The position numbers and the translations under genes are program-made. The notes beneath the pieces were generated by a model that had not been told where the DNA came from, did no database searches, and worked only from the letters and a program-made list of their open reading frames with translations. From contig JAQBVH010000053.1 of NCBI GenBank assembly GCA_027623615.1, forward strand, positions 1-10,352: a DNA stretch of 10,352 bases, written 5' to 3'. This DNA is from Planctomycetota bacterium (lineage in GTDB: Bacteria > Planctomycetota > UBA1135 > GCA-002686595). Below are positions 38 through 8,157 of this stretch, piece by piece; within the stretch, counting starts at the first letter, position 1; each line of letters opens with the position of its first letter.

Positions 38-3000
38 CTAGAACCGGAACGGGAAGCGCAGGTGCTCCAGGGCAGGGAAGACGCCCCCCGGGTCGAGCCC
101 GGAGTCGTCGGCGTCGAGGTCGAAGTCGACCCGCACACGCACGAAGTCCCAGTGGTTCAGGTTCAGGTCGCCGGCCACGCCCGTCCAGCCGAGGCTGGCC
201 GACTCGTCCGGGAGACCCGTGGCCGGGTCGACCACCGTCGCGTCGAAGTTGAAGGTGATCGAGGTGTCCGGACCCAGCTGATCGGCCGCGGAACCGATCG
301 CGCGGAAGGAGCGCTCGATCAGCGCCGCGTCGGTGCTCGTGGTCTGACCGAAGTTGGTCAGCGGCCCGTTGTCGGCAGTGACCGTCACGCGCATGCGATC
401 GAGGGCGGCGTCGTAGCTGGCCTCCGCGATCGGGAAGTCCGCCGATACGTTCGGGTTGGCCGTCAGGGACAGCCGGACGCTCGAGCCGCGCAGGAGCATC
501 GGGTTGCGCTTGACCAGGTCGTCCGCGAAGACGGAGGCGTCGAAGACGATCGTGTAGGGGTCCGAGGTGATGTGCGGCGTCTGGGGCGCCGACTGGATCG
601 TGTCCGGGCCGACCAGGGGTGCGCCGAGCTGGACCTCACCCGCGCCGTTCGTCAGGACCTGACCGCCCGGACCGAGGGCGTCGAAGCCGAAGGCGACCTG
701 GTCGAGGAACGCGGCCGGATCCCAGCGGGCCAGGCCCAGGGGGATCCAGCGGGTCTGGGCCCGCGAGCGATCGCCGTAGCTCGGAACGAGGTGACCGATC
801 CAGGCCTCGTTGAAGACGTCGTAGCCCACCGGCGCCGGAGTGCAGACCTTGGTCGGGTCGCCGGCTGCGTCGGGGAAGGAGAGGTCGCTCAGGTTCGGGG
901 CGTGCAGCTGAACGACACCCGGTGCGCCGTCGCCGCCTGCGCCGACCGTCCAGAACCCGCTCGGATCGTTCTTGTCCGGCTGGGCGTGGAAGCAGGGGAA
1001 GTTGGCCGGCGGGTTGAAGGGGGGCACGTTGGCCTGACCCTCGTCGTAGAACGTCGGGATGGAGTCACACTTCCAGACCGTCGCCCCGTTCTCGTTCGCG
1101 CCGCCCTGGTTCTGGCTGCCGGCGCCGCCCTGGCCGCCGCGGGCGTCCAGCTGCCGCAGGGGGTGCTGGAAGCTCATGGAGCTGTCCCGGTAGCCGTCGC
1201 CGGCGTCGCCATGGACGCCCTGGACCTCGACCAGGGTCAGGCTCTCGAGCACGATCGACCCTCCGGAGCCGCCGCCCGAGCCGCCGCCGACCCGATCGAA
1301 GAACCCGGTGTTCTCGCCGCCCCCGCCGGTGCCGCCCTTGGCCGAGACCTGACCTTCCGGCCCGACCACGATCTTGCCGATCGCCAGCACCTGGATCCTG
1401 CCGGCGCCGCCGCCGCCGCCGGCGCCCTTCTCATCACCCGTGGGTTTGAAGGGGACCAGCGGGAAGCTGGCCGAGTTGACCGCGTCGCCTCCGGCGCCGC
1501 CGCCCGAACCGGGTGCAGCGGATGCGAGCTCGCCGACGATCACCTCGCCGCCGATCAGGAGCATGCGGCCCGCGAAGTCGTTGCCGGTCTCACCGTCGAG
1601 GAACGGCGAGGGACCGACCCTGCCGCCCTGGGCCCGCAGCGCCTGGCTCTCCGCGCCGAGGCCCAGTTCCCCACCGGGGGCCCCGGGCTCGGCGTCCATC
1701 CCGACCAGGGTCTGGCAGCGAACCGGGACGGTCGCGCCGAGGTCGTAGCGGTACCACACATCAGGGCCGTGGCCACCGCCGCCGCCGCCCGCGCCGCGGC
1801 GCGCGGTCTTGCCGGTCTGCGCGTAGCTCGTCTCGCCGCCCTCGCCACCGCCGGCGAAGCTGTTGAAGGGTCCGAAGCCTGGCCCGCCGCGGGGGGTCGA
1901 CTGGGTGGTGAGATAGCTCCCGGTGCCGCCCTGGCCGCCGCCACCCTGACCGGAGGCACCCGGCTCGGGTTGGTTGGTCGTGTTGAGCGTACTCACGCCG
2001 GGGAAGTTGCCCCCATTGACGGACACGACCCCATGGATGCGCGCCTGCCCGGTGCACAGGATGGTCAGCGGGTTGGGACCGTTCGCCAGCACCTTGGAGC
2101 CCGCGGGGACGAACAGATCACGGATGTCGATCACCCCGTTGATCACGGTCTGGGTGCCGGTCGGCGCCCCGCCGGGTCCACCGATGATCGTGTCCGCGAC
2201 CGTGTTGATGATGATCGTGGTGAACGGCGGGATGTACCAGTCGAAGTCACCGTTCGGCCCGCCCGTGCCGGCGAAGCCGCCGCCGGCCGTGAGCTTGCCG
2301 TTCACGATCGTCGCGGACTGGAAGGGGTGGATCGCCTCGGTGTCGAGCAGACCGCCGGTCTCGAAGCCGGCGAAGATCTGATCCCCGTCGTCGCCGGGGG
2401 TGATCGTGCCGGGGTCGTAGGAGGTGGCGGTGGGCGCGACGAGGCTATCGTCGTCCGCGGTCGTTGCCTCGCCGGAGAGGTCCTCGAAGCCCGCGTCGAC
2501 GACGACTCGGGTCTGGGTGCCCTGGGGCAGGATGCCGAGGGGCGTCACGCGCAGCACCGCGCCGTTCGGGCCGCAGTTGCTCTCGAGCTTGACCCGCGCG
2601 CCCATCGATTCCCAGGTGAAGGAGCCGGAGTGGAACCACTCGAAGCGCACCCGCGCGAGGTTCGCCTCGGAGGGATTCACGGACTGGTCGAACCACACGA
2701 TCCAGGACACGGCATCGCCGATGCGACTGCGGGTGTTGATCGGCGCGAGGAAGCCCAGCGGCAGGTCCACGTTCCCGCCGACCTCGGACCAGTAGACGCG
2801 CTTGGTGTCGTCCTTGGCGATCTCCAGGTAGGAGGCCGCGTCGAGGCCGCTCGAGAGGGGTCGGACGACGACGGCGGGCGGCCCCGCGACAGGGTCGTCG
2901 TAGAGACCGGAGGGGTGGTCTGCCTGTCGCACCTGGAAGCCCCCCCGCGCCGTCACGGCCAGCGCGTCGCCGGCGGGCGACTGGACCGTGGGGGCGTTCG

Positions 3001-3403
3001 CGTCGCTGCCGCGAACCTTGACCATGTAGTGCATCCCGGCCTCGAAGCCGGCGCCCGCGTCCCCGGCGCCCGTCGGGCACGCGGGCCGGAAGACGACGAC
3101 GTTCGAGGCGCCCAGCTCGTAGGTGCCGACGGCGTGGGGGCCCTCGAGCACCCCTCCGAACGTGTCGGTGGCGCGCAGCCCTCGAATCAGGATCGTGTTG
3201 CCGTTGACCGTGGACAGGTCCACGTCCTTGGAGAAGGTGATCGTGACCTCGCCGTTCAGGGCCAGGGTGGCGCCGTCGCCGGGGCAGATGTCGAGCACCT
3301 CGAAGGTGCTCCCTGCGCCGGGGCCGCCGGGGGCGGTGCTCGAGGTGCCTGGCGAGCAGGCCCAGAAAAGGGGTGCGAGGAGCAGAACGCGATGAATCAG
3401 CAT
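38..3403 (-). CDS. Large Gly-rich lipoprotein with SbsA/Big_5-type Ig-like domain
   Basis: Predicted surface lipoprotein of 1121 residues, function unknown. The ATG at 3401-3403 was chosen because it opens a lipoprotein signal peptide: MLIHR, hydrophobic LLLAPLFW, then a lipobox ending at Cys16. The open frame extends further upstream to 3793, but that part is low-complexity and would bury the signal. Residues about 33-158 resemble a Big_5/SbsA Ig-like domain, with the typical 'PGDGATLALNGEVTITFSKDV' style opening. Residues about 170-310 look like a second all-beta module. From about 450 to 835 the chain is a Gly-rich repeat region. The C-terminal ~285 residues are beta-rich, contain an Asp-rich segment near the end and finish in an aromatic FPFRF tail. 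There is no Shine-Dalgarno before the start. The gene stands alone on the minus strand, divergent from the coiled-coil/actin genes. Such proteins are common in planctomycete envelopes; adhesion or cell-surface structure is a guess. I see no enzymatic motif. Confidence 0.85.
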   Translation of the reverse strand: MLIHRVLLLAPLFWACSPGTSSTAPGGPGAGSTFEVLDICPGDGATLALNGEVTITFSKDVDLSTVNGNTILIRGLRATDTFGGVLEGPHAVGTYELGASNVVVFRPACPTGAGDAGAGFEAGMHYMVKVRGSDANAPTVQSPAGDALAVTARGGFQVRQADHPSGLYDDPVAGPPAVVVRPLSSGLDAASYLEIAKDDTKRVYWSEVGGNVDLPLGFLAPINTRSRIGDAVSWIVWFDQSVNPSEANLARVRFEWFHSGSFTWESMGARVKLESNCGPNGAVLRVTPLGILPQGTQTRVVVDAGFEDLSGEATTADDDSLVAPTATSYDPGTITPGDDGDQIFAGFETGGLLDTEAIHPFQSATIVNGKLTAGGGFAGTGGPNGDFDWYIPPFTTIIINTVADTIIGGPGGAPTGTQTVINGVIDIRDLFVPAGSKVLANGPNPLTILCTGQARIHGVVSVNGGNFPGVSTLNTTNQPEPGASGQGGGGQGGTGSYLTTQSTPRGGPGFGPFNSFAGGGEGGETSYAQTGKTARRGAGGGGGGHGPDVWYRYDLGATVPVRCQTLVGMDAEPGAPGGELGLGAESQALRAQGGRVGPSPFLDGETGNDFAGRMLLIGGEVIVGELASAAPGSGGGAGGDAVNSASFPLVPFKPTGDEKGAGGGGGAGRIQVLAIGKIVVGPEGQVSAKGGTGGGGENTGFFDRVGGGSGGGSGGSIVLESLTLVEVQGVHGDAGDGYRDSSMSFQHPLRQLDARGGQGGAGSQNQGGANENGATVWKCDSIPTFYDEGQANVPPFNPPANFPCFHAQPDKNDPSGFWTVGAGGDGAPGVVQLHAPNLSDLSFPDAAGDPTKVCTPAPVGYDVFNEAWIGHLVPSYGDRSRAQTRWIPLGLARWDPAAFLDQVAFGFDALGPGGQVLTNGAGEVQLGAPLVGPDTIQSAPQTPHITSDPYTIVFDASVFADDLVKRNPMLLRGSSVRLSLTANPNVSADFPIAEASYDAALDRMRVTVTADNGPLTNFGQTTSTDAALIERSFRAIGSAADQLGPDTSITFNFDATVVDPATGLPDESASLGWTGVAGDLNLNHWDFVRVRVDFDLDADDSGLDPGGVFPALEHLRFPFRF
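905..2045 (-). repeat. Gly-rich repeat-coding region within the lipoprotein
   Basis: This part encodes irregular repeats in which Gly clusters (GGGGQGG, GAGGGGGGHG, GSGGGAGG, GAGGGGGAG, GGTGGGG, GGGSGGGSGG) alternate with short beta-type stretches such as RIQVLAIGKIVV and SIVLESLTLVEV. The spacing suggests a stacked parallel beta-helix or a Gly-rich fold, as in other large bacterial surface proteins. At DNA level it appears on the plus strand as imperfect (GCC)n runs, for example near 1399-1427. The repeats differ in sequence and length, so this is an old degenerate array rather than a recent tandem expansion. Confidence 0.7.
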
Positions 3404-3751
3404 GTGCGAGCTTGGGGTTGGGGGAGCCGGTGACGCGTTGTCCGGACTCCTGCCATTCAAGGCGCGTGCCGCAGGGTCACAGGCAACGGGCGGGCGCTTC
3501 TGTGGCGAACCAGCGTGCGCTCCCGCACTTGGGAGGGTGCGCCTCCTTCTGAGAATAGCAGCGGACCGGCAGCACGACCGGCGTCGAAATTCCGTCCAGA
3601 CCGAGAGAAAGAATCCGCAGGTTCGGGACTTCAGCTGGTCGGCGGCATACGGATGTGGGATCGCCCGCACTGCCAGGAAGGCCACTCCAGCCCCTTCCGC
3701 TCTGCTCGCATTTGAGTGATCCTGTTGAGGACTGCACCTCCCCCCACCTCG
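3404..3751. other. Divergent intergenic region, no convincing gene
   Basis: About 350 bases separate the minus-strand lipoprotein start from the plus-strand coiled-coil gene. GC content is lower in places (3585-3620) than in the flanking genes. Short frames exist on both strands but have neither protein-like composition nor a ribosome site. A small inverted repeat is present (CTCCC-GCACTT-GGGAG near 3520-3535). On the minus strand a TATTCT hexamer (complement of 3553-3558) could be a -10 element for the lipoprotein gene, but I see no matching -35. The region presumably holds the promoters for both directions. Confidence 0.5.
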
Positions 3752-3775
3752 ATGTCCAGCTCCAGCCCCTTCCGC
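3685..3775 (+). repeat. 16-bp perfect direct repeat, 75 bp apart
   Basis: CTCCAGCCCCTTCCGC occurs at 3685-3700 and again at 3760-3775. The offset of 75 bases is a whole number of codons, so both copies read SSPFR in the same frame. The first copy is followed by an in-frame TGA at 3713-3715. The second copy lies inside the first codons of the coiled-coil protein gene. It may be a small duplication or a pair of regulatory sites; the sequence does not decide between them. Confidence 0.55.
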
Positions 3776-4207
3776 GGCACGAATGTGTGCCACCGCCTCG
3801 AGCTACCCACGGCTCGTCGTCCCCGGCGTTCGATCCGCACGGGGCGAGGACTGCGGCTTGGTGGCGAATGGACAGCCACGGTCACCGAGCCCAGGGTCGC
3901 GCCGGCACCGGCGGTGGCGGCCCAACCCACCCAGGCGATCGCGGATAGCTCCGGTCGCGATATCGCCTTCCTCCAGCGTCGCCTGGCCAAGCTCTCCGCC
4001 ATCCTGGAGCTGCAGGAGGGGGAGCTGAGACGGGTCGCTGGCAAGCTGAGCGAGGACCCCGGCATCGCCTCGGCCAGCCCTGCCCACGCGGGCCTGGACG
4101 CCATGGATCCCGAGGTGGAGCGCAAGCGCGAGATCATGTCGCGCATCTTCCAGGCCAACGTCGAGCTGCGACGTCGACTGGACTCTCGAGCCTCCCCCGG
4201 CCGATAG
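3752..4207 (+). CDS. Small basic/coiled-coil protein of unknown function, upstream of MamK-like actin
   Basis: I do not recognise a family. From ATG 3752 the product is 151 residues. Residues 1-48 are basic and Arg-rich (ARRPRRSIRTGRGLRL). Residues 49-66 are Ala/Pro-rich, probably a linker. Residues 69-101 form a heptad-bearing helix (I71, L74, L78, L81, L85) rich in Arg, Glu and Gln. A loop follows, and then a second charged helix at about 120-145 (VERKREIMSRIFQANVELRRR). High GC at third positions and the clean helical pattern argue that it is coding. The start is uncertain: a GTG at 3716 is in frame, neither start has a Shine-Dalgarno, and I prefer the ATG. The gene ends in TAG, 114 bases before the MamK-like gene, and could be co-transcribed with it. 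A filament adaptor or regulator is possible, because actin-like filaments often pair with small coiled-coil proteins, but that is inference from position only. Confidence 0.6.
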   Translation: MSSSSPFRGTNVCHRLELPTARRPRRSIRTGRGLRLGGEWTATVTEPRVAPAPAVAAQPTQAIADSSGRDIAFLQRRLAKLSAILELQEGELRRVAGKLSEDPGIASASPAHAGLDAMDPEVERKREIMSRIFQANVELRRRLDSRASPGR

Positions 4208-4321: not shown

Positions 4322-5383
4322 ATGGCCGACCCGCACCCGGCAGACGTTGACGTGAGCTCAAACAAAGATCACGGCGTCCTTTACCTCGGTATTGACCTGG
4401 GCACCTCCCGGACCTCCGTCTGCGCAAGCAACGGCGTCCGCGAGACCATCGAGTCTTTCGTGGGCTACCCGAAGGACCCCGTCGCCCAGAAGCTCCTCAA
4501 GAAGGACGTCTTGTTCGGGCAGGAGGCGCGGGACAAGCGCCTCTCCCTGAACCTGCACCGTCCGCTCCAGCACGGCGTGCTGAAGTTCAACGAAGGCGGA
4601 GTGGAAAACAGCGAAGCCTTGCGCGCAGCCAAGGACCTGGTCAAGGAGACCGTCCGTCTGGCTCGCCCGCGTAAGGACGAACTCGTCTATGCGGTGATCG
4701 GCGTGCCCGCCCAGGCCTCGATCCACAACAAGGACGCGATCCTGCAGGCAGCGCGCGAGTCGGTGGACTCGGTGATGCTCTGCTCGGAACCCTTCTCCGT
4801 GGCCTACGGCCTCGAGATGCTCGAGGACGTGCTCGTCATCGACATCGGCGCGGGAACGGTCGACCTGTGTCGGATGCATGGCACGATGCCCGAGGATTCG
4901 GACCAGATCACGATGACCACCGCCGGAGACTTCGTGGACGGCGAGATCGAGAAGGAGATCGGCGCTGCGTTCCCCGAGGCGCAGTTCACCACGCAGATGG
5001 TGAAGGAGATCAAGGAGCGCTACTCGACGGTCGACCAGGCCACTGAGCGCATCAACGTCACCTTGGGCAAGCCGACCGAGTTCGACATCACGGACCAGAT
5101 CCGCGCCGCGTGCCAGCGCATCGTGCCGCCCCTGGTCGAGGGCCTCGGAAAGCTGATCGCGACCTTCGACCCCGAGTTCCAGGACAAGCTGAAGAACCGG
5201 GTCCTGCTCGCTGGCGGCGGCAGCCAGATCCGCGGTCTCGACCGCGCGATCGAGGCGGCCATGCGCGAGAATCTGGGCTCCGGCCGGGTGATCCGCATCG
5301 AGGAGCTGGTCTACGGGGGCGCGAACGGCGCCCTGAAGATCGCCCACGACATGCCCGAGGACTACTGGGAGCAACTCAAGTAG
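4322..5383 (+). CDS. MamK-like bacterial actin (ASKHA ATPase)
   Basis: A complete 353-residue actin-like ATPase whose closest match I recall is MamK, the filament that positions magnetosome chains. All actin-fold motifs are in order: phosphate-1 loop LGIDLGTS (22-29); VVGYPKD-like FVGYPKD (46-52); AVIGVPA (124-130); SEPF with Glu156 and DIGAGT with Asp174, which from memory correspond to catalytic Glu143 and Asp161 of Magnetospirillum MamK; and the adenosine motif LLAGGGSQIRGL (295-306). The C-terminus (GALKIAHDMPEDYWEQL) resembles the MamK ending in spacing and residues. Length is that of MamK (about 350) and there is no large insertion, so it should be able to polymerise with ATP in the cytoplasm. 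ATG 4322 gives a short polar 17-residue lead before the first strand; it has no Shine-Dalgarno, and a GTG at 4352 is an alternative. No other mam genes are nearby. A strong hairpin follows the TAG stop. MreB, ParM, FtsA and DnaK are less likely given the SEPF..GYG and C-terminal signatures. Confidence 0.88.
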   Translation: MADPHPADVDVSSNKDHGVLYLGIDLGTSRTSVCASNGVRETIESFVGYPKDPVAQKLLKKDVLFGQEARDKRLSLNLHRPLQHGVLKFNEGGVENSEALRAAKDLVKETVRLARPRKDELVYAVIGVPAQASIHNKDAILQAARESVDSVMLCSEPFSVAYGLEMLEDVLVIDIGAGTVDLCRMHGTMPEDSDQITMTTAGDFVDGEIEKEIGAAFPEAQFTTQMVKEIKERYSTVDQATERINVTLGKPTEFDITDQIRAACQRIVPPLVEGLGKLIATFDPEFQDKLKNRVLLAGGGSQIRGLDRAIEAAMRENLGSGRVIRIEELVYGGANGALKIAHDMPEDYWEQLK

Positions 5384-5651: not shown

Positions 5652-5829
5652 GATAGCGGACCGGGACGCCCCGGGGACGGACCTCGCCTGGACCGGCGCT
5701 TTCGCAGCGTCGGGGAACTCCGTGGCCGCAGCGAACGCTGCCTGCCCGACTTCGAACCACGGCCCCGCCCCGTGCCTCGCGCGCCCCGTCTGGTGCGCGA
5801 CACGGCCGGCGCCCCGCCGACCCACGACC

Positions 5830-5844
5830 GGAGATCCACCCTTG
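5830..5844 (+). promoter_or_regulatory. Ribosome binding site deciding a TTG start for rsgA
   Basis: GGAG (5830-5833) lies 8 bases before the TTG at 5842-5844. The in-frame GTG at 5722 has no such site and would add 40 Pro/Ala/Cys-rich residues without family resemblance, so the TTG is preferred. Confidence 0.6.
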
Positions 5845-7026
5845 GATCCTAACGACAAGAACGAAACCGTACGGCGCTTCCTCAAGTGCGCCAAGAAGAT
5901 GAAGAGCCGCGACGAGCGGCGTCTGATCGACGAGAACCGCAAGGCGAACCATGACCGTCCGAGGCACGCCCCGCGCCAGCGCTCCTGGAACGAGTGGGAC
6001 GAGGACCAGGGCGACGAGGACCTCTTCGAGGCGATGCGTCCGGCCGCTCCCACGGACTTGAGCGGGGCGAAGAAGGTGGGGCTGCCCGAGCTCCCGGACC
6101 TGGCCGCCTCGCCAGGCGAGCCAGATGCGGCCACGACCGTGGGTTGGCTTGTCGCTCCTCGGGGGCGACAGGCCACGGTGCTCACGCCCGATGGGGAGAT
6201 CGAGGCGAACATCCCGCCGCACCTGCGCGCGGGCGGTGCGCTCGTCGTCGGGGACGAGGTGCTGCTCGAGGGGAACAAGGTCCTCGGGCGCAGCGCCCGG
6301 CGCAGCGTCCTCTCGCGCCGGGACCCGGGCTCCGCCCACGCCGAGAAGGTGATCGCCGCCAACGTCGACGTCGGCGTGGTCGTCGTGCCCGCGGGGGGCA
6401 GGCGCCTCAAGGTCGGGCTCGTCGACCGCATGTGGGTCGCCCTCGCGAAGGGCGGGATCGCGCCGGTGGTCGTGATCAACAAGGTCGACCTGGTCGACGA
6501 CCCCGACGAGCGTCGCGAGATCGAGGCTGCCCTCGCCGACTGGTCGGCGCTCGGAGTCACGGCCCTTGCGGCCTCAGCCTCCGACGGCACCGGCCTCGAC
6601 GAGCTGGGAAAGCAGCTGATCGGGCGTACGGCGGTCTTCGTCGGGCAGAGCGGGGTGGGCAAGTCCTCCCTCTTGAACCTGCTGGATCCGGAGGGCGTGC
6701 GCGACGTCAAGGAGATCCGCGACGCGGATGGGCGCGGGCGGCACACGACCAGCGCCTCGACCCTGCGGGAGCTCGGTGACGGGACGCGCCTGATCGACAC
6801 CCCCGGCATCCGCGCCTTCGGACTGCCGGACCTGGAGCCCGAGGACGTACTGGCTGCCTTCCCCGACCTCGCCGACCTCGCGCAGGGGTGCAGATTCCGC
6901 GATTGCAGCCACACCGGCGCTGAGCCGGGCTGCGCCCTCGAGGTCGCGTCGTCAATGGACCCGGACCTGGCACGCCGGCTTACGCGCTTGCGGTCCATCC
7001 TCGCAAGCTTGGACGAGGCGGGTTAG
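5842..7026 (+). CDS. rsgA: Ribosome small-subunit-dependent GTPase RsgA
   Basis: RsgA (YjeQ) is a cytoplasmic GTPase that checks late maturation of the 30S ribosomal subunit. From TTG 5842 the product has 394 residues. After an N-terminal extension of about 95 residues comes an OB fold (about 98-155, with VVGDEV and the 'EKVIAANVDVGVVVV' type junction). The circularly permuted GTPase domain follows in the order that defines the family: G4 NKVD (213-216), G5 SAS (about 245-247), G1 GQSGVGKS (268-275), G2 around HTT (301-303) and G3 DTPG (319-322). The C-terminal zinc site is intact: Cys350, Cys355, His357, Cys364 in CRFRDCSH...GC. All key residues are present, so it should be active. The extension is Lys/Arg-rich at first (KCAKKMKSRDERR) and then acidic (EWDEDQGDED), longer than in E. 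coli RsgA (about 350 residues in total). The DUF3810 gene follows after 9 bases, which suggests co-transcription. Confidence 0.95.
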   Translation: MDPNDKNETVRRFLKCAKKMKSRDERRLIDENRKANHDRPRHAPRQRSWNEWDEDQGDEDLFEAMRPAAPTDLSGAKKVGLPELPDLAASPGEPDAATTVGWLVAPRGRQATVLTPDGEIEANIPPHLRAGGALVVGDEVLLEGNKVLGRSARRSVLSRRDPGSAHAEKVIAANVDVGVVVVPAGGRRLKVGLVDRMWVALAKGGIAPVVVINKVDLVDDPDERREIEAALADWSALGVTALAASASDGTGLDELGKQLIGRTAVFVGQSGVGKSSLLNLLDPEGVRDVKEIRDADGRGRHTTSASTLRELGDGTRLIDTPGIRAFGLPDLEPEDVLAAFPDLADLAQGCRFRDCSHTGAEPGCALEVASSMDPDLARRLTRLRSILASLDEAG

Positions 7027-7035: not shown

Positions 7036-8157
7036 ATGGACGCGCCGTCGACGAACGATCGCCCCGTTCGTTGGCGGCGCGCCCTCGCTCTGGTTGCGCT
7101 CGCGCCCCTGGCGTGGGGACTGCTGCACCTCGCCCGGCTCGACCCGTGGCGCACCGAGGCCTGGTACGCCCGGGGGGTGTTCCCCTACGTGCAGCGGGTG
7201 CAAGCCGCGCTCACCTCCTGGAGCCCGGTCTCCATGGCCGAGGTCGTGATCCTCGTCGGCCTGGCCGTGGTCGCCCTGCGCTGCTGGTGGGGCGGACGCT
7301 GCTGGCGGCACGGAAGCCGCAGCCTGCGCAACCTTGGCGCCCACGCGCTGGCCCAGTCCTGCGCGCTGGTGGGGGTGAGCGGGATCACCTTCCAGTGCCT
7401 ATGGGGCTTCAACCACGCCCGGCCGACCCTGGCGGAGTTGATCGGGCTCGAGACCGGGGACATCGAGGTCGAGGAGCTGCGCTCCCTCGTGCGCGCCCTG
7501 CACGACCGGGCCTCCGAGGACCGACCCGAGAACAGCCTGCTCGGGGCCCTGACCCATGTCTGGCGCTGGAAGCCGGAGGAGGACGAGCGCGCAACAGCGA
7601 GCGCGTGGGACCGGGCCGTGCTCGAGCACAGGTTCCTCGATGGGCCGCGCGTGCGCAGCAAGGACGCGCTCGGGTCGCGGCTGTTGACCTTGGCGGGGCT
7701 GACCGGGATCTACTCGCCCTTCACCGGCGAGCCGCACCTCAACGCTCACATGCCGCGGCTGAGTCGCCCCTTCACCGACGCCCACGAGATCGCGCACCAG
7801 CGGGGGATCGCCCGTGAGGACGAGGCCAACTTCGTGGCCTGGCTCGTCTGCAACCACTCGACCGAGCCCTACCATCGCTACTCGGGCAACCTGCTCGCCC
7901 TGTCCTATTCGATCTCCGCCTGGTACGGCCAGCAGCCGGAGGAGGCCCGGACGGAGTTCCTGTCGTTCCGGCCGGAGGTGCGCAGGGACCTGGTCCTGCT
8001 CTGGGACTTCTGGCGCAAGCGCAAGAGCGCCCTGAGTGAGGTCGCCCGAGGGACGAACGACCTGTTCCTCAAGGGCCAGGGGCAGGAGTCCGGAGCGAGG
8101 AGCTACGGGCGCATGGTCGACCTCCTGGTGGCCTGGCGCCGGCGTAGGGCGGACTGA
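7036..8157 (+). CDS. DUF3810 family membrane protein, putative zinc metallopeptidase
   Basis: A 373-residue protein matching the DUF3810 family. Three hydrophobic segments precede the main domain: about 15-33, 67-85 and 103-123. The C-terminal domain carries HEIAH (His250, Glu251, His254) followed by QRGIAREDEANF. The HExxH zinc motif and the nearby acidic EDE (261-263, a possible third ligand) suggest a gluzincin-like metallopeptidase. The family is named only as a domain of unknown function and its substrate is not known to me. The large domain probably lies near the membrane on one side; I cannot fix the topology. ATG 7036 lies 9 bases after the rsgA stop without a Shine-Dalgarno and gives a natural N-terminus (polar, then WRR, then membrane helix). 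Stop is TGA, the only non-TAG stop among the complete genes here. The next gene starts 42 bases later. Confidence 0.85.
   Translation: MDAPSTNDRPVRWRRALALVALAPLAWGLLHLARLDPWRTEAWYARGVFPYVQRVQAALTSWSPVSMAEVVILVGLAVVALRCWWGGRCWRHGSRSLRNLGAHALAQSCALVGVSGITFQCLWGFNHARPTLAELIGLETGDIEVEELRSLVRALHDRASEDRPENSLLGALTHVWRWKPEEDERATASAWDRAVLEHRFLDGPRVRSKDALGSRLLTLAGLTGIYSPFTGEPHLNAHMPRLSRPFTDAHEIAHQRGIAREDEANFVAWLVCNHSTEPYHRYSGNLLALSYSISAWYGQQPEEARTEFLSFRPEVRRDLVLLWDFWRKRKSALSEVARGTNDLFLKGQGQESGARSYGRMVDLLVAWRRRRAD

Follow-up and report, generated by a model that had tools for sequence, protein, structure and literature searches.

We found that a coiled-coil gene lying upstream of a MamK-family actin, in a 10,352-nt stretch of planctomycete DNA (hereafter the window, meaning the whole stretch analysed), is a conserved partner of that actin. 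This conserved upstream partner and its helix motif are what is new here; no prior paper on either was found in the open-access literature, a scope outside which most subscription papers lie. We lean modestly towards reading the two genes as a cytoskeletal module, in which a filament-forming actin of the MamK family would work with an adaptor partner on a cargo other than the magnetosome. The features discussed below are collected in Table 1.

Table 1. Features of the window and of two related loci.
Feature	Position	Strand	Basis or remark
Partner gene, coiled-coil protein	3716..4207	+	at most 163 aa; homologue upstream of actin in related loci
Predicted long helix, residues 72-113, coiled-coil part	3929..4054	+	AlphaFold, block-mean pLDDT 81-98 over 71-110
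Conserved C-terminal domain (alignment A1)	3959..4195	+	91.7 bits in the window's own genome (E 1.1e-25), with the window itself among the A1 rows
Helix motif IMSRIFQANVELR, residues 140-152, candidate actin-binding helix	4133..4171	+	inside predicted helix 134-159
MamK-family actin	4322..5383	+	353 aa; NF040964 match, PDB MamK match, AlphaFold/Foldseek
Glu156 codon	4787..4789	+	at least 90% conserved among 54 aligned relatives
Asp174 codon, DIGAGT loop	4841..4843	+	invariant among 54 aligned relatives
rsgA	5722-7026
DUF3810 protein	7036-8157
PVC-type haem-binding protein, N-terminal part	from 8200
Second partner copy of Poly30	L003 14032-15066		N-terminal GGDEF domain
G036 pair	L109 1455-2330 and 2367-3410		same contig as MamB-like transporter

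Membership of the window actin in the MamK family is nearly certain. It scored 411.9 bits against NCBIfam NF040964 ("MamK family actin-like protein", curated cut-off 400), so the family name given in the first-pass annotation of this DNA stands, and it stayed below the cut-offs of both the BeeR model NF053558 (197.1 bits, cut-off 530) and the MreB model NF010539 (54.6 bits, cut-off 293). The nearest solved structure is MamK 5ljw (phmmer E 1e-74), followed by BeeR (E 8e-34). The AlphaFold model (mean pLDDT 90.1, pTM 0.84) has as its top Foldseek match 5ljv, a subunit of the MamK double-helical filament (E 2e-38, TM 0.88/0.95), with BeeR at rank four and MreB-type chains from rank six onward. 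The E values for 5ljw and 5ljv exclude a chance match to MamK. Nucleotide-site residues of the actin type are present: Glu156, the catalytic position of the actin fold, and Asp174 of the DIGAGT loop are kept at the positions first reported. The MamK-like C-terminus was also confirmed, as the window actin has MPEDYWEQL where MamK has LPPQYWRQL, and two of its residues there, P345 and W349, never vary among the 54 relatives. The window actin resembles MamK of Magnetospirillum (5ljv, 5ljw, 5jyg) in family model, nearest fold, nucleotide-site residues and C-terminal PxxYWxQL, but it is only about 38% identical to it, falls in a separate sister clade and has no magnetosome genes found with it.

That clade was recovered in a main tree of 63 rows computed with a mixture model. 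Thirty planctomycete proteins including the window actin formed one clade (99/98) and 21 relatives of AMB-1 MamK a second (93/99), the two being sisters with a joint support of 89/75 (92 in a quick tree of 162 rows). MreB was most distant (split 100/100). The quick tree is concordant, but its long branches call for caution. The MTB label given to the 48 and 21 AMB-1 MamK relatives in the trees is our own and not a record of magnetosome genes protein by protein, and the sampling held no MamK nameable as Nitrospirota. The window actin is thus placed with MamK and outside MreB and BeeR, while FtsA, DnaK and PilM were compared by profile scores only. The sister position does not bear out the suggestion of an ancestral branch of the family. 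The supposed planctomycete host is upheld, as both the phylum group and the nearest loci are Planctomycetota.

We also considered whether the window actin could be a planctomycete BeeR, building a three-stranded tubular filament. BeeR of Opitutus terrae (8r2n) is the nearest solved structure after MamK and, according to the accessible part of its description, it is a MamK-related actin from Verrucomicrobiota that are non-magnetotactic and lack magnetosomes (PMC11929497). However, the window actin lies far under the BeeR cut-off, and in the main tree BeeR falls outside the MamK clade, joined by five other proteins from planctomycetes (100/98). Moreover, the same accessible part (PMC11929497) lists 12 cross-strand residues, of which nine could be mapped, the remaining three finding no match in the chain numbering; none of the nine was identical in the window actin, with one falling in a gap and E153 facing D138. 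This identity therefore appears extremely unlikely.

MamK-family proteins are widespread in the phylum. At E<1e-90 they were found in 106 of 294 Planctomycetota genomes, about a third, and the NF040964 cut-off was exceeded in 73 of the 294. Ten further genomes gave matches with E between 1e-59 and 5e-79; in the quick tree eight of these group with BeeR, and the other two (L078 and L079) are long branches within the planctomycete clade. The actin is therefore no stand-alone copy, as had been thought, considering that 106 genomes have it and that a partner gene accompanies most copies. That the family occurs in Planctomycetota is not in itself new, because NCBI already names some copies "MamK family actin-like protein"; in addition, the part of a 2020 paper available to us speaks of "planctobacterial MamK actin-ancestors" (PMC7203096). 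Ten BeeR-like planctomycete actins (L066-L068, L071-L077) group with O. terrae BeeR and have no partner upstream. One locus (L080, genome G023) carries an adjacent pair of actin-like ORFs, the second very diverged (end branch 3.09).

We then asked which magnetosome genes accompany these actins. The magnetochrome domain PF18509 was not found in the window's genome (G000, 72% complete), nor in Poly30 and Pla163, two relatives recorded as complete single chromosomes (102/102, 150/159 and 103/103 candidate places scored, respectively). Across the 294 genomes the domain occurred in at least three (G011, G036 and G192), which serve as positive control; this count is a lower bound, with at most 26 candidate places scored per genome. 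The MamP model gave no match in G000 and at most 23.8 bits in Poly30 and 21.4 bits in Pla163, against 187 bits in G011 and 176 bits in G192, although low-scoring matches to it were also seen in 10 of 14 controls. MamB was discarded as a marker, as its model failed to discriminate, with matches in each of the six genomes tested and in 13 of the 14 controls. Because G000 is 72% complete, the absence of magnetosome genes is weaker there than in Poly30 and Pla163. The first-pass annotation had seen no magnetosome genes around the actin, and the same holds for PF18509, MamP and a magnetosome cluster across G000. As no magnetosome genes were found with it in this 72% complete genome, we do not file the window actin as MamK in the strict sense, the magnetosome-chain filament, and the cargo of its filament is probably not a magnetosome. 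The earlier interpretation is in this way partly supported, and a filament system with another cargo, which it had offered, seems its best reading.

A different view is that the window actin is the leftover of a lost magnetosome island. A MamK-family protein is encoded in two of the three genomes with a magnetochrome domain, G036 and G192, the latter also carrying a MamP-like gene. The G036 actin (378.3 bits against NF040964) is nested inside the planctomycete clade, grouping 100/100 with four planctomycete proteins in the main tree. G036 holds MamB-like and magnetochrome genes, all under curated cut-offs, and may make magnetosomes. For magnetosome genes, inheritance by descent and repeated independent loss have also been proposed, as the accessible section of PMC7602337 has it. 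On the contrary, the MamK-family gene is kept in 106 of 294 genomes versus at least three for magnetochrome, its catalytic residues are conserved where a leftover would be expected to decay, and the partner family is retained without magnetosome genes. We therefore regard a leftover as very unlikely. The third magnetochrome genome, G011 (93% complete), has no MamK-family match beyond the MreB level (best E 1.4e-18), and one of its contigs (C135, L113) carries the MamP-like gene of 187 bits together with two MamB-like genes.

The partner gene ends 114 bp upstream of the window actin. Its start codon is uncertain (in-frame GTG 3716, ATG 3752, GTG 3785 or GTG 3914), and its product has no Pfam or NCBIfam match. 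The AlphaFold model shows confident helices at residues 72-113 and 134-159, whereas its confidence is low ahead of the first helix and in the stretch that separates the two; as its pTM is 0.32, only local helices are predicted. In the loci around 34 relatives, a homologue of the gene was found mostly directly upstream and on the same strand. The conserved part comprises 76 residues (consensus ExLERRIxKLxxxLxxTExxLxRxxxxKxxDPGVASIYRxVQGLxxxDxxxxxKKELMxxIFxANLxLQ) and was made into a profile, A1, of 21 rows with the window among them. The window partner, which thus helped define A1, has its features R88, R89, G116, G126, K137 and N148 as well as the final helix motif. With an iterated profile, the partner was found upstream in 81 of 111 actin rows, a set that counts some loci more than once and includes 13 actins that are BeeR-like or divergent in another way, all 13 of which lack it upstream; the iterated profile gave no match at the MreB loci L116-L139 either.

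Partner and actin also occur together at the level of genomes. The A1 domain was found in at least 67 of the 294 genomes, all within the 106 having a MamK-family actin at E<1e-90, and at none of the candidate places scored in the other 188 (Fisher p 8e-39, in a test that ignores relatedness). These counts are lower bounds, with at most 19 candidate places scored per genome. In family f3, one of the six genomes (G207) alone has the actin, and it alone has the partner. The A1 profile found no partner in 39 of the 106 MamK-bearing genomes, and family f27 is a consistent exception, with nine countable loci (L094 in the first set; L157-L160, L173 and L189-L191 in the held-out set) that lack the upstream motif, suggesting that the actin can do without the partner or that the partner lies elsewhere.

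The helix motif of the partner is an amphipathic stretch of 13 residues with the form hydrophobic pair, two of any, hydrophobic pair, two of any, N, two of any, L, R/Q. In the window partner it falls in a region with a block-mean pLDDT of 90-96 over residues 131-160. The pattern was drawn up after seeing a first set of 89 loci, four of which are cut by contig ends; among the 85 remaining distinct loci, the motif was found in the upstream ORFs of 67, compared with 2/1700 in controls and 3/1700 in shuffles. With the pattern unchanged, it was found in 18 of 36 held-out loci (controls 1/720, shuffles 1/720), the 36 being what remained of 40 fetched once two used before, one cut off and one repeated place were excluded. 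Both control numbers, 1700 and 720, are repeated draws from the same loci. Against the motif stand some f14 loci with an A1 domain (G060, G079, G221 and G262) that did not match the pattern; in L193, L194, L196 and L185 it was absent over the whole upstream protein too. Judged by eye, L162 and L164 look like near misses, and all such cases were counted as misses. Diverged upstream proteins missed by the A1 profile still end in a similar helix.

Four f23 loci (L037, L039, L041 and L054) have two or three copies of the motif in one upstream protein, as a multivalent binder would. The motif could instead be a self-association helix. The N-terminal part of the partner varies. An N-terminal GGDEF domain was found in three of ten partners scanned, namely those of L061, L049 and the second copy of Poly30 (Pfam E 4e-13 to 2e-17). 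Judged by eye against the GGDEF signature motif, these domains are degenerate, with DDRIL, GDRIL and similar forms in place of the signature, and for this reason cyclase activity is doubtful.

These same features would suit a partner that acts in filament assembly, as nucleator, capper or bundler, instead of as an adaptor; the filament would then be a scaffold for cell shape or for the envelope. The two or three motif copies of the f23 loci would fit a role in nucleation or bundling, the coiled coil one in bundling, and the GGDEF-bearing forms one in regulation. However, true MreB scored above its cut-off in 24 of the 27 genomes examined (the three without it being G000, 72% complete, G125 and G036), so that shape is probably served already. 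We consider this explanation rather unlikely.

The pair was also found on one viral contig (IMGVR_UViG_3300009370_000045, L197/L201), the only one found. The order there is major head protein (phrog_283), partner, a small ORF matching phrog_7851, actin and terminase large subunit (phrog_2), and the head gene is followed by an ORF on the other strand for which no match was seen. The phage partner ends LLKVVFEENKQLRKDLSGE and carries the helix motif. The A1 profile, built without this contig, picked only this partner from 155 ORF segments in 21 kb (E 1.9e-5). Searching the partner domain against PHROGs gave nothing better than E 0.02. At 359.4 bits against NF040964 (cut-off 400), the phage actin stays below the threshold; its identity to seven G036-group proteins is 59-67%. 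The G036 partner matches the A1 profile weakly (E 2.9e-4), and at E<=0.01 no relative but itself was found.

Could the pair then be a plasmid- or phage-type DNA segregation system turned chromosomal? Besides the phage contig itself, its actin has as best phage family PHROG 691 "partition protein" (E 1e-6), and two partners gave sub-threshold matches to an Xre/MbcA/ParS-like N-terminus (E 0.015) and to KfrA_N (E 0.29). However, a single viral contig carries the pair, the window actin had no match among 50,697 phage records, no DNA-binding family rose above cut-off in the ten partners scanned, and the actin is spread across the phylum. Such an origin is accordingly quite unlikely. A link to plasmids was tried and rejected: 15 records match MamK P0121, and the ten listed have at most 28% identity.

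In the adaptor reading that we prefer, the window actin would form an ATP-driven filament, and the partner would oligomerise through its coiled coil and bind the actin through its C-terminal amphipathic helix. The partner would then tie a cargo or a regulator to the filament, by analogy with MamJ, which joins magnetosomes to MamK, and with ParR, which links plasmids to the ParM filament. The variable N-terminus, whether disordered, coiled-coil or degenerate GGDEF, would bear the cargo or signal side. The position of the partner, its co-occurrence with the actin, its coiled coil and its short conserved terminal helix make it the natural candidate for a linker. Like our pair, ParM with ParR joins an actin to a dedicated partner, on a different actin branch. 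The same applies to FcmB with FcmC, likewise on a different actin branch (accessible part of PMC12645912). It is established that MamK and ParM filaments require a cargo linker (see also the available text of PMC13052382), and MamJ is that linker for magnetosomes. In Desulfovibrio magneticus RS-1, which has MamK and Mad28, Mad20, Mad23, Mad25 and Mad26 are, by description, coiled-coil proteins that work with the MamK filament, and two-hybrid contacts are reported in the portion available of PMC12748827.

With slightly more doubt than confidence, we further propose a Planctomycetota-wide, magnetosome-independent system of actin plus adaptor. In it, one short amphipathic helix would bring modules that can replace one another to MamK-family filaments. 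Coiled coils, GGDEF domains in degenerate form and phage proteins would be such modules, as would, in a single lineage, a protein encoded next to magnetosome-type genes. The magnetosome filament would then be one application of a broader organiser. MamK is commonly presented as the filament of the magnetosome chain. Should the family serve Planctomycetota chiefly as a cytoskeleton unconnected with magnetosomes, equipped with a dedicated partner and a short candidate helix for binding, the origin of the magnetosome skeleton becomes testable, and so does the cargo of a filament in cells known for complex membranes. The motif brings the hypothesis down to the size of a peptide, which can be assayed with purified protein. 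Poly30 and Pla163, both single-chromosome records, carry the actin/partner pair.

We also looked at the genes around the pair. The coiled-coil gene, rsgA and the envelope genes named by the first-pass annotation are there as described; the coiled-coil gene is conserved, whereas rsgA was dropped as a functional neighbour, because in a set of 35 loci, of which some are short, it turned up by the actin in the window's own genome alone. The DUF3810 and haem-binding proteins were likewise rejected as functional neighbours, as in the same loci they are near the actin only in close relatives. Clustering of neighbours gave mainly antisense frames of GC-rich DNA and genes limited to close relatives, and no cargo gene was conserved beside the pair in the loci compared. 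The minus strand of the window holds a large ORF at positions 38-3403. By eye, its start at 3403 resembles that of a lipoprotein; it carries a Big_5 domain, and L006 has two relatives in tandem. Another contig of G000 (C537, L152) has a second partner gene of 375 residues, GGDEF-like at its N-terminus by eye, with a gene for a CxxCH haem protein ending upstream of it. As Poly30 (L003) has a haem protein followed by its second partner, C537 is possibly the continuation of the window's contig.
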